From an uncultured Eubacteriales bacterium (GTDB taxonomy: Bacteria > Bacillota > Clostridia > Christensenellales > Aristaeellaceae), in NCBI GenBank assembly GCA_902801765.1, contig CADCJO010000015.1, positions 1-34,890 on the forward strand: DNA of 34,890 bases. The letters run 5' to 3'. A model generated the notes under the pieces. That model made no database searches. It saw only the letters and a list, made by a program, of their open reading frames with translations, and was not told where the DNA came from. Of this stretch, positions 2,905 through 34,890 are shown piece by piece; the stretch's first letter is position 1, and each line of letters opens with the position of its first letter. The position numbers were made by a program, and so were the translations under genes.

Positions 2905-4032
<1,128 letters not shown>

Positions 4033-4049
4033 TTCGTTATCAGCAAAAG

Positions 4050-4084
4050 GCCCTCTCCGTTTTCACGCGGAAAGGGCTTTTTGT
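4050..4084 (+). terminator. Rho-independent terminator after msmX
   Basis: GCCCTCTCCG (4050-4059) pairs with CGGAAAGGGC (4068-4077) with one mismatch, and is followed by TTTTTGTTT. It closes the sugar-importer region. Confidence 0.8.
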
Positions 4085-4104
4085 TTATCATGGTATCGTA
4101 TTCA

Positions 4105-4575
4105 TAACAGCATGTTGTGAAGGATGACGAGGCGAGGGCCTGTGCGGCCCTCGTGCACCTGCACCAGGGGACTTCGTCCCCTGGTCCCATTTAGCGGGTG
4201 TAGCTTGACTGATCGAATCAAGTCGGTCCCCGTTGATGCTGTGTGGGACGCGGAAGTCTGACTTGGTGCCGTTGTGCTTCTGGCCCGGCGACGAAGCCGC
4301 CAACCCGGATGCTTTGCATCCGGGGAAAGCCAGGGAATAATCCGTAGGGGAAAATGAATTTTCCCCTACGGATTATCGCAGGCTTTCTTGGGCCAGAAGC
4401 CCTCATACTTTTCATAACCCCTACGCACCAGGCGGAGCTTGTCTGCTTATCCCAACAACGTAATTTCGCCAGTTGCGGGTCCAGGGGGATCATCCCCCTG
4501 GTGGGGTCTGGGGTGAAACCCCAGCGTTTCTTCCTTATTGAAATAATAATTCATCCTTGAGAACAACACTGTTAA
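4105..4575 (+). mobile_element. Structured ~470-nt non-coding element with terminal inverted repeats, copy 1
   Basis: This gene-free stretch is repeated in inverted orientation at 5814-6289 and in part at 34646-34890. Its ends are imperfect inverted repeats: TAACAG-N2-TGTTGTG-AAGGATGA at the left, and the complement of TTAACAGTGTTGTTCTCAAG followed by GATGA at the right. Inside are several hairpins: GAGGGCC/GGCCCTC near 4132-4151; CCAGGGGAC/GTCCCCTGG near 4166-4186; CCCGGATG/CATCCGGG; CCGTAGGGGAAAA/TTTTCCCCTACGG; CCAGGGGGA/TCCCCCTGG and CTGGGG/CCCCAG near 4482-4523. A long-range pair GCTTCTGGCCC (4276-4286) with GGGCCAGAAGC (4390-4400) encloses the middle hairpins. No transposase or convincing reading frame is inside. 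It looks like a MITE or a structured RNA element and ends 3 nt before the stop codon of the minus-strand chromate transporter. Confidence 0.75.
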
Positions 4576-4578
4576 CAC

Positions 4579-5139
4579 TTAAAACTGAAACACAATTCCG
4601 ACCACAGCGGCAATGGCGATAAAGATGACGGGGCTCCATTTGAGTTTCCGCTGACCGATGAAAATCGCGACACCCAGCATGATGGCTTTCCAGAGGAAGA
4701 ATTCGCCGTAATTGCCCGCGGCCAGGGCGTCCATGTTCACCAGCGCCACCCGCGCCACGTTCAGTCCGGCGACGGTGATCATGGCGATGGAGGCGGGACG
4801 CAGCCCGTAGAACGCGCCTTCCACAAAGCGGTTGTTCCGGAACTTCTCCAGGAATTTGGCGATGATCAGGATAATGATGACGGAGGGCACGGCAAGACCG
4901 ATCGACGCGACCACGCCGCCCAGCACCCCGGCGGTGGTGAAGCCCGCGTAGGTGGACATGTTGATGCCGATGGGCCCGGGGGTGGACTCGGAAACGGCGA
5001 TCATGTCAGCGATGTCAGCGGTGGTGAACCAGCCGGTCTTGGTGCTCATTTCATAGAGGAAGGGCAGCGTCGCCAGCCCGCCGCCGACGGAGAACAGGCC
5101 GGTCTTGAAAAACTCATAAAACAAACGCAGATAAATCAT
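4579..5139 (-). CDS. chrA: Chromate transporter family protein, half-size subunit (downstream gene of pair)
   Basis: A 186-residue membrane protein of the short-chain CHR family. It has the conserved N-terminal region (YEFFKTGLFSVGGGLATLPF), the SESTPGPIGINMSTYAG motif around residues 50-67, and about five to six hydrophobic spans. Half-size CHR proteins occur as adjacent pairs that together correspond to a full-length ChrA. The upstream partner is the next gene on the minus strand, with 3 nt between its stop and this ATG, and GAAGGAGGGG provides the ribosome binding site. Family members export chromate in proteobacteria; the true substrate in anaerobic clostridia is unknown. The stop codon lies 3 nt from the right end of the structured element at 4105-4575. 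Confidence 0.88.
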   Translation of the reverse strand: MIYLRLFYEFFKTGLFSVGGGLATLPFLYEMSTKTGWFTTADIADMIAVSESTPGPIGINMSTYAGFTTAGVLGGVVASIGLAVPSVIIILIIAKFLEKFRNNRFVEGAFYGLRPASIAMITVAGLNVARVALVNMDALAAGNYGEFFLWKAIMLGVAIFIGQRKLKWSPVIFIAIAAVVGIVFQF

Positions 5140-5142
5140 GGC

Positions 5143-5712
5143 TTATTTCCCCTCCTTCGCGGCTTTGCTCCGGTGCAGGGAAATGATCATACCTGTGCAG
5201 CCTGCCAGAATTACCAGCACGGCGGCGGGAATCTTCACCGGCAGGAGAGGCGAAAAAGCGTTCAGCGCGAACACCGCTAGGAAAATTGCCAGCGCCGCGG
5301 CGTCCACCACCGACTTTTTCCACAACCGCAGTACCGCCTGCAAAATCAGCACGCACACGCACACGCGGATGCCCGCGAACGCGTGCTGCACCACGGGATA
5401 CTGGGCGAAGTTCTGCAAAAACGCGGCAATCAGCGTGATGATGACGAGCGGACCGGTCAGAAAGCCCAGCCCCGCCGCGATCGCCCCTTTCACGCCGTCC
5501 TTCTTCTGGCCGATAAACGTGCTCACGTTCATGGCGATCACACCCGGCGTGCACTGGCCGATGGAAAAATAGTCCCGCAGGTCGTCCATCGTCGTCCAGT
5601 GGCGCTTGTCCACCAGCTCGCGTTCCAATATCGGCAGCATCGCGTAGCCTCCGCCAAAGGTGACGCAGCCGATCTGTACGAAGGTGATATACAACTCCCA
5701 AAGCTCTTTCAT
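5143..5712 (-). CDS. chrA: Chromate transporter family protein, half-size subunit (first gene of pair)
   Basis: A 189-residue membrane protein with the CHR domain: LYITFVQIGCVTFGGGYAML at the N terminus and SIGQCTPGVIAMNVSTFIGQ around residues 50-69, matching the SESTPGPIGINMSTYAG region of its partner. ATG 5712 is chosen because AAAGGAG lies 6-7 nt upstream; an upstream in-frame ATG at 5775 would add 21 residues without a good site. The C terminus (HRSKAAKEGK) is basic. With the downstream gene it forms a two-subunit transporter. The operon is bracketed by inverted copies of a 470-nt element, like the cargo of a composite transposon, although no transposase is present. Confidence 0.87.
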   Translation of the reverse strand: MKELWELYITFVQIGCVTFGGGYAMLPILERELVDKRHWTTMDDLRDYFSIGQCTPGVIAMNVSTFIGQKKDGVKGAIAAGLGFLTGPLVIITLIAAFLQNFAQYPVVQHAFAGIRVCVCVLILQAVLRLWKKSVVDAAALAIFLAVFALNAFSPLLPVKIPAAVLVILAGCTGMIISLHRSKAAKEGK

Positions 5713-5813
5713 GCCTGCTCCTTTCTTCTTAACCATGCAAAAATAAATATACCTGTATTTATTCGACACATTCATTCGCTTTTCCTGTTTGTTACGATTC
5801 GCGTTTTATAATC

Positions 5814-6289
5814 TTAACAAGTATGCTTTCAAGGATGAATTCCATATCCAAAGAGTAGGATACGCTGGGGCTGTTCGCCCCAGACCCCAACCAGGGCGGT
5901 GACCGCCCTGGACCCGCACCTGGCGAAATAACATAGCTAGGAAAAGCAGATAAGCTCCGCCTGGTGCGTTGGGGTTACGAAAAGTTAGAGGGCTTCTGGC
6001 CCAAGAAAGCCTGAGAAAATCCGAGGGGGAAAATACATTTTCCCCCTCGGATTATTCCCTGGCTTTCCCCGGATGTTTCGCATCCGGGTTGGCGGCTTCG
6101 CCGCCGGGCCAGAAGCACCATGACGCCAAGCCAAACTTCCGCGTTTCTCTCCGCTTCTGCGGGAACCATGCCGATTTATTCAGTCAAGCAAGATCCGCTA
6201 ATGAGGTCCAGGAGATGAAATCTCCTGGTGCAGGTGCACGAGGGCCGCACAGGCCCTCGCCTCGTCACCCTTCACAATAAGACTGTTAA
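5814..6289 (-). mobile_element. Structured ~470-nt non-coding element with terminal inverted repeats, copy 2
   Basis: Read on the minus strand, this 476-nt stretch follows copy 1 from end to end. It starts TTAACAGTCTTATTGTGAAG followed by GGTGA and ends TTCATCCTTGAAAGCATACT followed by TGTTAA, so both outer ends carry TTAACA-like inverted repeats. The same hairpins are present but with paired changes: CCAGGAGAT/ATCTCCTGG, CCGAGGGGGAAAA/TTTTCCCCCTCGG and CCAGGGCGG/CCGCCCTGG. The GCTTCTGGCCC/GGGCCAGAAGC pair is unchanged. It fills the whole gap between the chromate operon and topB, apart from the topB promoter. Short open frames inside (for example 5969-6280) are products of GC-rich hairpins, not genes. 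Confidence 0.75.
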
Positions 6290-6331
6290 GAATTAAGAAA
6301 AGAAACAATACCTATCCACCTTTTGATCAGC

Positions 6332-6360
6332 TTTCATTTTTTCCGGTTTTGTGGTAAGAT
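6332..6360 (+). promoter_or_regulatory. Probable topB promoter with extended -10
   Basis: TTTCAT (6332-6337), a 17-nt spacer ending TGTGG, then TAAGAT (6355-6360). The -35 is poor and the TG before the -10 probably compensates. The whole 29-nt segment closely resembles the gyrB promoter at 18676-18704. Confidence 0.6.
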
Positions 6361-6393
6361 GGACGGGAAACCAATGATATGCGAGGATTTGAC

Positions 6394-8541
6394 ATGATCG
6401 TAGTTGTCGCGGAAAAGCCCAGCGTAGGGCGGGACATTGCCCGGGTGCTGGGGTGCAGGGAGCGGGGCGAAGGGTTCCTGAAAGGGGAAAACTACCTGGT
6501 CACCTGGGCGGTGGGCCATCTGGTGACGCTCTGCGAGCCCGACGAAATCGACGAAAAATATAAAAAATGGCGGATGGAGGAATTGCCCATCCTGCCGGAA
6601 TATATTCCCACGAAGGTGATTTCCAAAACCAAGTCTCAGTTCAGCGTGGTCAAAAAGCTGATGAACGATAAGGACACGGAAAAGCTCATCTGCGCCACCG
6701 ATGCCGGGCGGGAGGGAGAACTGATCTTCCGGCTGATCTACAACCAGGCCAAGTGCAAAAAGCCCGTGGACAGGCTGTGGATTTCCTCCATGACGGACGA
6801 AGCCATCAGGGAGGGCTTCGCCACGCTCAAGCCCGCCCGGGAATACGACGGCCTGTACCGCAGCGCCACCTGCCGCTCGGAGGCGGACTGGCTGGTGGGC
6901 ATGAACGCCAGCCGGGCGTTTACCCTGCGGTTTGACGCGCTGCTGTCCATCGGCCGGGTGCAGACGCCGACGCTGGCGATTTTAGTCAAGCGCTATCACG
7001 AAATCGCCAACTTCAAGCCCGAGGATTATTTCACCGTTACCGCAGACTTTGGGGACTATTCCGGCCAGTGGTTCGACCCAAAGGTGGAGGACGAAAAAAA
7101 GGCCAGCCGCATCCCCACCAAGGAAAAGGCCGACGAAATCGTCCAGGCGGTGAAAGGAAAGGCCGCACGGGTAAAGAGCGTGACGGCGGAAGCCAAGAAG
7201 GAACTGCCGCCGCAGTTGTACGATTTAACGTCCTTGCAGCGGGAGGCTAATCGTAAGCTGGGCTTCACCGCCGACAAGACACTGAAAATCGCCCAGGAAT
7301 TATATGAAAAATGGAAGGCCATCACTTATCCCCGCACCGACAGCCGGTATCTGCCCATGGACATGATCGGCAGGACGGTGCAGACCCTGCATAAGCTGCC
7401 GGGCCAATATCATGATAACGTGGAAAACATCCCCTGGCGGGAAGGCGGCAAGCTGCCCATTTCCAAACGCATCTTCGATAATGAAAAGATTTCCGACCAC
7501 CACGCCATCATCCCCACGCCCCAGACCGCGCCGATGGACAAGCTGCCCGCCGATGCCCAGAAGCTGTTTGATATGATCGCCCGGCGGCTGATCGCGGTGT
7601 TTTATCCAGCCCACGAGTATGACGCCATCAAAGTCATCACCGAAAGCCAGGGGCACCTGTTCAAGTCCACGGGCAAGGTGGTGCGGGTGAACGGCTGGAA
7701 GGACGTGTACCCCGCCGACAAAGCGGAGGAGGACGCCCTGCCCGCTCTGAACGAGGGCGACGGCCGCACGGTCAGCAAGGCGACGGTCAAGAAGGAAGCC
7801 ACCAAGCCCCCGGCGCCCCATACTGACGCTTCGCTCCTATCCGCCATGGAAAACGCGGGCCGGGAACTGGAGGACGAAAAGCTGCGGGAGCAGATGAAGG
7901 GCAGCGGCTTGGGCACGCCCGCCACCCGCGCCGCCATCATCGAGCGGCTCATTCAGGTGGGGTACGCCGTCCGGCGCGGCCGGGCCATCAGCGCCACGGA
8001 AAAGGGCGTGTGCCTGATCGGGATCGCGCCGCCCGAAATCGCGTCCCCGGAAACCACTGGGAAATGGGAGCTGGCCCTGGATGAAATCGCCCATAACCAA
8101 CGGGACACCCAGCGATTCATGGAGGGCATTCGCCGCCTGTCCACCTTCCTGGTGGAGTACGCCCGGGATACCAAGACCGAAGCCACTTTCCCGGAGGAAA
8201 TGCGCCGGGGCAAGAAAGGCGCGGCCAAGCGGAAAACCTCCGGCGCGAAAGCCATCGAGGGCATTCAATGCCCCCTCTGCGGCAAGCCCGTCCAGGAAAA
8301 CGCGAAGGCCTTCGGCTGCTCCGGCTGGCGGGACGGGTGCCATTTCACCCTGTGGAAGGACGGCCTCAAGCGCGGCGGCGGGCCGATGCTGAATGAAAAG
8401 CTGGTGACGCTGCTGCTCCAGCAGCACGAGGTCAAGGGCTCCACCGGCGTCATCGCTCTGCGGGACGGGCAATTGACCTTCACCCCCAAGGGACAGGATG
8501 CGCCGCAGGTGAGCCTCAGCATCGTATACGAAAAGAAATAG
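6394..8541 (+). CDS. topB: DNA topoisomerase III (type IA)
   Basis: A 715-residue type IA topoisomerase that relaxes and decatenates DNA through a 5'-phosphotyrosine. It opens with the Toprim strand MIVVVAEKPSVGRDIARVLG and has ATDAGREGELIF (Toprim acidic residues). The catalytic Tyr312 lies in ITYPRTDSRYLP, and GLGTPATRAAIIERL is typical of TopB. The C terminus (IQCPLCGKPV, GCSGWRDGCHFTLWK) is a zinc-ribbon-like module. ATG 6394 is preferred over the in-frame ATG at 6379 because GAGGA lies at 6383-6387 and the family starts at MIVVVAEKPS. It is transcribed alone from a promoter that resembles that of gyrB. No terminator is obvious after it. Confidence 0.96.
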   Translation: MIVVVAEKPSVGRDIARVLGCRERGEGFLKGENYLVTWAVGHLVTLCEPDEIDEKYKKWRMEELPILPEYIPTKVISKTKSQFSVVKKLMNDKDTEKLICATDAGREGELIFRLIYNQAKCKKPVDRLWISSMTDEAIREGFATLKPAREYDGLYRSATCRSEADWLVGMNASRAFTLRFDALLSIGRVQTPTLAILVKRYHEIANFKPEDYFTVTADFGDYSGQWFDPKVEDEKKASRIPTKEKADEIVQAVKGKAARVKSVTAEAKKELPPQLYDLTSLQREANRKLGFTADKTLKIAQELYEKWKAITYPRTDSRYLPMDMIGRTVQTLHKLPGQYHDNVENIPWREGGKLPISKRIFDNEKISDHHAIIPTPQTAPMDKLPADAQKLFDMIARRLIAVFYPAHEYDAIKVITESQGHLFKSTGKVVRVNGWKDVYPADKAEEDALPALNEGDGRTVSKATVKKEATKPPAPHTDASLLSAMENAGRELEDEKLREQMKGSGLGTPATRAAIIERLIQVGYAVRRGRAISATEKGVCLIGIAPPEIASPETTGKWELALDEIAHNQRDTQRFMEGIRRLSTFLVEYARDTKTEATFPEEMRRGKKGAAKRKTSGAKAIEGIQCPLCGKPVQENAKAFGCSGWRDGCHFTLWKDGLKRGGGPMLNEKLVTLLLQQHEVKGSTGVIALRDGQLTFTPKGQDAPQVSLSIVYEKK

Positions 8542-10859: not shown

Positions 10860-10927
10860 CTGGGGGAAACCGCTCTTTGGAGGCCAAAGAGCGGTTTCCC
10901 CCAGACCCCCTTCCGAGAAAGCCATAA
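10860..10927 (+). repeat. 21-bp perfect hairpin with AGG loop and conserved tail (copy 1)
   Basis: Arm 10860-10880 (starts CTGGGGGAAACC) is fully complementary to 10884-10904, leaving only the 3-nt loop AGG. The tail CCTTCCGAGAAAGCCATA follows at about 10910-10927. The same design recurs at 20749-20815 and, with a changed stem, at 25664-25726. There is no T-run after the stem, so it is not a standard terminator. Confidence 0.8.
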
Positions 10928-11010
10928 AGGGTATGGCGTTATTTATGAATCCGGGATTGTTGCTCCTAAACAGATTTCTTTTAATACCATCTCGATGAAA
11001 GAGGGATAGC

Positions 11011-20748: not shown

Positions 20749-20815
20749 CTGGGGGAAACCATTCTTTGGAGGCCAAAGAATGGTTTCCCCCAGACTCCCT
20801 TCCAAGAAAGCCGTA
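20749..20815 (+). repeat. 21-bp perfect hairpin with AGG loop and conserved tail (copy 2)
   Basis: Arm 20749-20769 is fully complementary to 20773-20793 around the loop AGG. It differs from copy 1 at two stem positions (GC in copy 1, AT here), both compensated in the other arm. The tail CCCTTCCAAGAAAGCCGTA follows. It begins 9 nt after the gyrB stop. Confidence 0.8.
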
Positions 20816-20830
20816 TAGGAGGAGTATCTT

Positions 20831-30565: not shown

Positions 30566-30597
30566 AAACGGATGAAACGCAGACCTTTTCAGGCCGC

Positions 30598-30685
30598 GCG
30601 CCGCTTCCCTACGGTAGGATGATCTACACAGGTTCCAAGGGTTCTGTCTCAGCCGTCTTTCGAACGGCGCCCCCAGCGGATGCAC
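30598..30685 (-). ncRNA. TPP riboswitch (THI element)
   Basis: On the minus strand the aptamer shows all the conserved blocks: GGGGGCGCC, then GGCTGAGACAGAACCC (CTGAGA at 30647-30652), AACCTG and CCGTAGGGAAGCGG. It precedes a terminator hairpin and thiT. Binding of thiamine pyrophosphate should shut off the gene. Confidence 0.95.
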
Positions 30686-34625: not shown

Positions 34626-34645
34626 TCGCTGATGGGTCACTTTAA

Positions 34646-34890
34646 TTCACAACGGAGCGAGGGCCTGTGCGGCCCCCGTACCCCCGCACCAGGGGACTTC
34701 GCCCCCTGGACCCATCTAGTGGATACTGCTTGACAGAGGGAATCAAATTGGTTCCCACTGTAGCGGAAAGGAACGCGGAAGATGAATTTGGTGCCGTTGT
34801 GCTTCTGGCCCGGCGGATGAATCGCCGATGACCGCCTGTGGCGGGAATATCATCGGCGATGAAATCAGGCGAAACGAGCAATGTCCGCAT
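34646..34890 (+). mobile_element. Third copy of the ~470-nt structured element (5' part, cut by the window end)
   Basis: From GGAGCGAGGGCCTGTGCGGC onward it follows copy 1 in the same orientation: the GAGGGCC hairpin, CCAGGGGAC-TTC-GCCCCCTGG, TGCTTGAC, the GGAACGCGGAAG stretch and GTGCTTCTGGCCCGGCGG. After about 34815 it diverges into a different hairpin (ATCGCCGATGA with TCATCGGCGAT). The terminal repeat seen in copies 1 and 2 is not recognisable at its left end. It begins about 20 nt after the ylmH stop. The open frame on the minus strand here is not a gene. Confidence 0.65.

Follow-up and report, generated by a model that had tools for sequence, protein, structure and literature searches.

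A dispersed palindromic DNA element in a genus of Clostridia whose hairpin pairing is probably maintained by template switching

A sequence of about 470 bases is present three times, twice whole and once broken, in the window, which is the whole stretch of DNA analysed here (34,890 nucleotides). It is probably, with a confidence of roughly 0.62, a palindromic DNA element of MITE-like, non-autonomous type that belongs to one rumen genus within Clostridia; events at the DNA level would homogenise its arms and invert or exchange its body. The hairpins most likely stay well paired because DNA copying rewrites one arm from the other, rather than through preservation of an RNA product. Compensatory substitutions are a standard argument for a new structured RNA, but the strong formal covariation of this element is better explained by DNA template switching. 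During DNA replication, the polymerase would briefly take the other arm of a hairpin as its template, a process known as quasipalindrome correction. Such arm-on-arm templating would leave the stems paired without selection on an RNA. The inverted ends may also permit template switching or recombination within or between copies, by which the body would be inverted or replaced. Four tests separate an RNA from template switching: the counts of G.U versus A.C cells, two-way copying between arms, missing single-step intermediates, and comparison with an authentic RNA of the same genomes as a yardstick.

Copies in the window and distribution of the element

Copy 1 is located at 4104-4575 on the forward strand (472 bases) and was delimited from the sequence, its inverted pairing with copy 2, and matches across the whole genome. 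The original prediction placed the 470-nucleotide element at 4120-4530; its limits are wider and run from terminal repeat to terminal repeat. According to Pfam, copy 1 lies between a MalK-type ABC ATPase gene (2905-4032, forward) and a chromate transporter gene (4579-5139, reverse). Copy 2 (5814-6289, reverse strand, 476 bases) is inverted relative to copy 1 and lies between divergent genes, a chromate transporter (5143-5775, reverse) and a DNA topoisomerase (6379-8541, forward), also identified by Pfam. Copy 3 (34635-34816, forward) is broken; what remains is its 5' part, which includes a type B terminal repeat at 34635-34655. A further palindromic repeat of the GGCGATGA type interrupts copy 3 at 34817-34890, and the contig of the window ends inside that repeat. 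Related sequence also interrupts three other copies (L014, L019, and L023). A conserved small protein was considered and rejected: the antisense reading frames at 4218-4493 (reverse) and 5969-6280 (forward), the sole frames of at least 80 codons in the two whole window copies, have no Pfam match.

The own genome (2.40 Mb in 93 contigs, 81% complete) contains 62 matches to a 26-base core pattern with up to three mismatches, 33 forward and 29 reverse, and the reversed control pattern gave none. A second pattern, taken from the 3' core, was found at 86 places in the same genome. Among 29 genomes of the genus, this 3'-core pattern gave at least 20 matches in 11, a single match in five, and none in 13. 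DNA similarity was found in 28 of 60 genomes, comprising the own genome, 26 of the 28 others of the genus (some over short stretches alone), none of seven from other genera of the family, and one of 24 others of the order, weakly. A scan of contigs with the core pattern returned 71 stretches under eight MAG names, titled Clostridia or Clostridiales. Rumen or reticulum is named in two of the MAG titles, and the RUG series is presumably made up of rumen genomes. No match to the element was found in the plasmid and phage collections. One element copy (L216, 1850-2250) lies on a 4.3-kb IMG/VR contig that may be misfiled host DNA. Neighbouring genes could be called, with a crude ORF caller, for 42 copies of the own genome; 17 lie between tandem genes, 16 between convergent genes, and nine between divergent genes.

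Anatomy of the element

Taken as a whole, the element forms one long, imperfect inverted repeat. At each end, a terminal repeat is followed by a hairpin A and then a hairpin B, and the arm stretches between the end hairpins and the centre are, by eye, alike as mutual reverse complements. In copy 1, the left terminal repeat is of type A (ATAACAGCATGTTGTGAAGGATG, 4104-4126, forward), as determined by repeat matches across the own genome and comparison of the ends, and the right one (4553-4575, reverse) is of the same type and inverted with respect to it, as seen in the sequence and the same end comparison. Perfect stems were counted from profile columns, and the expected counts assume independent arms. 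The outer hairpin A (GAGGGCC-TGTGC-GGCCCTC, 4134-4152) is perfect in 58 of 75 readable copies against 26.9 expected. Hairpin B, which has a variable stem (CCAGGGGAC-TTC-GTCCCCTGG, 4164-4184), is perfect in 71 of 91 against 21.2 expected. At the other end, the variable hairpin B' (CCAGGGGGA-TCA-TCCCCCTGG, 4481-4501) is perfect in 75 of 92 (16.9 expected), and the outer hairpin A' (CTGGGGTGAAACCCCAG, 4508-4524) in 83 of 90 (48.5 expected); the latter is followed by CGTTTCTTCC and gives a weak terminator-like match.

The centre is built on a stem that encloses three hairpins: C1, C2, and the long central hairpin (ATCC...GGAT, 4340-4373). The 5' arm of this stem (GCTTCTGGCCC) lies at 4276-4286 and the near-invariant 3' arm (GGGCCAGAAGC) at 4390-4400, which is the long-range pair that had been proposed. 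The stem is perfect in 81 of 95 readable copies (77.7 expected) and is so conserved that it has no two-sided change and gives no covariation evidence either way. C1 (4287-4301) is perfect in 86 of 97 copies against 73.9 expected, and C2 (CCCGGATGC-TTT-GCATCCGGG, 4304-4324) in 72 of 87 against 67.2. Between species, the core stem and the hairpins C1 and C2 hardly vary. Template switching alone would not produce such constancy, so this core is constrained by something; an RNA role or a protein-binding role is possible. In two copies from two other genomes (L139 and L150), C1 is swapped for another hairpin of the GGCGTCCTTTGGACGCC type.

At least three hairpins had been said to keep their pairing through double substitutions between copies 1 and 2, and the three changes given are all present exactly. 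The stem of hairpin B is replaced by CCAGGAGAT/ATCTCCTGG in copy 2, the pair CCGTAGGGG/CCCCTACGG inside the central hairpin by CCGAGGGGG/CCCCCTCGG, and the stem of hairpin B' by CCAGGGCGG/CCGCCCTGG.

The kinds of pairs were counted in eight stems over 97 oriented copies, which were kept out of 98 that were long enough among 213 collected elements. There were 5741 Watson-Crick, 32 G.U, 62 A.C, and 56 other cells. A.C is favoured over G.U in hairpins A (17:2) and B (19:1), and G.U over A.C in B' (12:3). Therefore, wobble pairs are not generally preferred on the strand of copy 1.

Two-way arm copying in the central hairpin

Full pairing of the central hairpin is the exception across the family. 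With a looser pattern, 135 copies could be read, of which 30 had perfectly matching arms; independent arms would give 8.0. The states of the two arms could be read in 107 of the 213 elements. The commonest state is mismatched, with GCA in the 5' arm and GAG in the 3' arm in 20 copies and GTA with GAG in 16 (36 in total). The 3' arm is like the 5' arm in 20 copies (GCA/GCA in 13 and GTA/GTA in seven), and the 5' arm is like the 3' arm in ten (GAG/GAG). GCA faced GTA in none of the 107, and the reverse hybrids, with GAG in the 5' arm and GCA or GTA in the 3' arm, were also absent from them. Seven further hairpins fall outside the matched and mismatched classes (x/GAG in five and GCA/x in two), and by a strict definition there is one copy with a single-site intermediate. 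The remaining 34 carry other letters, 23 of them from two other species, whose copies have the same kind of arm offset (for example, L096 and L040).

From these arm sequences, the matched versions look as though either arm had served as template for the other, with two bases copied together. Two-way copying of several bases with few intermediates is how quasipalindrome correction through DNA template switching is recognised, and the central hairpin displays this pattern. Since the mismatched state is the commonest and matching runs both ways, CCGTAGGGG/CCCCTACGG in copy 1 and CCGAGGGGG/CCCCCTCGG in copy 2 are most simply read as a mismatched hairpin of one kind repaired in opposite directions. 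PMC7202029, PMC8604942, and PMC8794818 describe template switching where inverted repeats are imperfect. According to PMC8794818, it both makes hairpins and repairs their pairing, and according to PMC8604942, switching of the template between inverted repeats homogenises the arms and inverts the spacer.

Inversion and exchange at orthologous sites

Flanks were compared across genomes with the elements masked. Nineteen pairs of elements occupy the same gap in two genomes, with both flanks anchored in eight and with L132 and L071 each in two pairs; these numbers are silent on the frequency of empty sites because the loci of the relatives were mostly fetched for holding the element. Three of the 19 pairs are 96.9-99.3% identical, all in the same orientation. 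Comparison was possible for 14 of the remaining 16. In 13, the copy at the orthologous site is outmatched by a different copy from the second genome, L018/L089 being the sole exception. Nine of the 16 are inverted and seven are in the same orientation, with no departure from half (p 0.80). Since either orientation is found at orthologous sites, no strand is kept relative to the neighbouring genes. These comparisons suggest that palindromic repeats can lose both orientation and sequence identity at fixed sites, although some joins could be assembly errors because all the named genomes, and probably the others too, are MAGs, and repeats are the places at which assemblies go wrong.

The differing elements could instead have been inserted independently into the same intergenic hot spots, with no inversion or exchange in place, a reading that has some chance of being right but is not the probable one. 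In its favour, the types of terminal repeat differ between species within the same gap at L122/L067 and L181/L032. At L109/L098, an unrelated palindromic repeat whose ends are GGAACG/CGTTCC (L098, 3655-4079) sits in the sister genome RUG563 where the own genome carries the element. These three cases indicate that turnover through new insertion also occurs. What speaks against independent insertion as the whole account is the pair L018/L089, in which the body is inverted and yet both terminal-repeat tips are common to the two copies, including an uncommon base. L001/L093 (L001 being window copy 1) and L004/L038 each have one common tip followed by an inverted body. Of the nine inverted pairs, eight of them examined for tips, these three showed a shared tip; in the other six, separate insertions are possible. 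The whole body is inverted in nine of the 16 non-identical pairs, but inversion of a spacer within hairpin B is rare, with GAA in place of the loop TTC in one of 90 copies.

A bolder extension of inversion and exchange in place is that, throughout the genus, palindromic cassettes between genes, numbering from tens to about a hundred in each genome, are actively inverted and swapped where they stand. The sites would keep the element while its content and orientation were re-drawn between species, either by a dedicated hairpin-recognising enzyme or by a genome-wide, replication-driven mechanism. This is speculative and unlikely to hold as a whole.

Terminal repeats and mobility

The terminal repeats are of two unrelated types, A and B. 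Type A was found, with up to three mismatches, at 42 places in the own genome, and the reversed control gave none. Both ends are of type A in 28 of 88 full copies and of type B in 18; a further 19 combine types or have a recognised type at one end, and 23 have neither. The element thus has the terminal inverted repeats by which MITEs are known. Inspection by eye of the sequence beyond the terminal repeats revealed no clear target-site duplication, and no clean empty site with a duplication was found. Within a copy, the likeness of its left and right terminal repeats exceeds expectation weakly at most; locus-specific matching of the two was rejected, as it appeared in the tip alone (p 0.03) and in no other segment. 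In the search for an autonomous partner with the same ends, 20 stretches were found at terminal repeats away from known cores, 15 with core pieces and five without. Eight of these stretches were viewed in part, and some have little or no core. Places of this kind look like decayed remnants.

It is rather unlikely that a transposase or recombinase recognises the end hairpins as DNA and that their pairing is selected for transposition. The two hairpins at each end in mirror order, the strict pairing without a wobble preference for the strand of copy 1, and the nearly fixed orientation of the hairpin loops relative to the element end are consistent with such recognition. However, copies with a mismatched central hairpin are common. 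The search for a mobilising enzyme covered one family, the Y1 transposase (PF01797), which was found in ten of the 29 genomes of the genus. Among the 11 copy-rich genomes, it matched in two (G003 and G020) and was absent from nine; no match was obtained in the own genome (G000) or in G019, G013, and G007. The genomes searched are incomplete. A Y1/RAYT partner, as a REPIN/RAYT or IS200/IS605-derived repeat would have, was rejected, Y1 being missing from most copy-rich genomes.

Covariation compared with an authentic riboswitch

Homogenisation of arms by DNA copying also accounts best for the covariation that had pointed to an RNA. The predicted folding is borne out on paper: the RNA fold of 4126-4526 (401 bases) has an energy of -214.9 kcal/mol, against -153.8 (sd 6.7) for 100 shuffles, a z of -9.2. 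Copies were collected and aligned for a covariation check, and 28 of 41 picked copies, under nine genome labels, were scored on the structure of a single fully paired copy, which has 79 pairs. Pairing was found in 96.3% of the cells. Two-sided changes occurred at 30 of the 79 pairs, against a shuffled mean of 13.5, and none of 500 shuffles reached as high a value. The signal was lost when partner columns were slid by one to three positions.

A TPP riboswitch lies at 30589-30684 of the window on the reverse strand, over the Rfam gathering score, and its relatives served as the yardstick. These were 24 TPP riboswitches of the genus over the family cut-off, out of 25 matches, scored at 21 pairs. 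The element had 147 two-sided and ten one-sided cells, whereas the riboswitches had 16 and 14 (Fisher p 2.5e-7). The ratio of G.U to A.C was 10:37 in the 28 element copies and 14:0 in the riboswitches (Fisher p 9e-8). The comparison is not perfectly even because the TPP structure came from RNAalifold and that of the element from one fully paired copy. The tolerance of G.U over A.C that marks an RNA strand was also not found in the eight stems of the 97 copies. In contrast to this eight-stem pattern, the structure that RNAalifold itself gives for the element has 107 G.U and 30 A.C cells. The excess sits in 25 arm pairs with 99 G.U and 11 A.C cells; 74 of the 99 come from four columns, and the same pairs have six two-sided and 56 one-sided cells. 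The covariation is strong yet unlike that of a selected RNA, and the compensating changes do not show an RNA role.

In the Rfam search of the window, the TPP riboswitch alone reached its gathering score, and the element had no match at that level. At E values up to 5, the region 4030-6400 gave 24 matches, the lowest E being 0.013, all under the gathering score. The earlier remark that the element was not recognised as one of the known large bacterial RNAs agrees with the Rfam check. Terminator-like matches in the element region numbered six against 3.4 by chance, and promoter-like matches numbered three against 1.4. The promoter count weighs against transcription of the copy 1 strand as an RNA; an outward promoter in the terminal repeats, where there is a weak A+T-rich pattern beyond the repeat, is not claimed either.

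A large structured non-coding RNA family, with the copy 1 strand transcribed and its stems preserved through selection, is thus distinctly improbable, for its very stable fold, its two-sided changes, the near-invariant core, and the G.U-rich arm pairs of RNAalifold are set against the A.C excess in the eight stems, the four-column origin of most arm G.U cells, the one-sided changes in those arms, the missing Rfam family, and an orientation without clear preference, either at orthologous sites or beside tandem genes (the same sense in five of 17 and the opposite in 12). What stands of the original prediction is a genus-wide family whose pairing is kept through two-sided changes; selection for an RNA does not follow. 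It had offered RNA or single-stranded DNA as the functional form. RNA is disfavoured by the almost pure Watson-Crick pairing, the arm copying, and the occurrence in either orientation, and single-stranded DNA comes nearer to the evidence.

Relation to known systems

The closest parallel in mechanism is quasipalindrome template-switch mutation, in which, according to PMC7202029, PMC8604942, and PMC8794818, the arms of imperfect repeats are matched by copying one arm, several bases together and in either direction, and the spacer can invert. The present case differs in that the evidence comes from existing copies of a repeat that is dispersed, that whole 470-base bodies at orthologous sites appear inverted or exchanged, and that loop inversion in a short hairpin is rare. 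MITEs and the bcr1 repeats of Bacillus cereus, which are small and non-autonomous, are likewise short, non-coding, and foldable, with inverted ends and many intergenic copies. Unlike them, the element has two unrelated types of terminal repeat around one body and four end hairpins with interchangeable stems, and target duplication was not found. REP/REPIN elements are linked to RAYT transposases. As described in PMC3116915 and PMC3733652, they are dispersed intergenic hairpins in inverted pairs, as is the element. The element is much larger, however, and Y1 matches were lacking in the own genome and in G019, G013, and G007. GOLLD, ROOL, OLE, and HEARO are large structured bacterial RNAs. They resemble the element in size and in a branched predicted fold, whereas the element has tens of copies in a genome, is almost strictly Watson-Crick paired, does not keep its strand, and has no match at an Rfam gathering score.

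A second palindromic repeat in the window

A second, unrelated palindromic repeat (CTGGGGGAAACC...GGTTTCCCCCAG) is present in two copies in the window, at 10860-10930 and 20749-20819, which are 89% identical. Both of its arms are altered together, with CGCTC/GAGCG in one version and CATTC/GAATG in the other.
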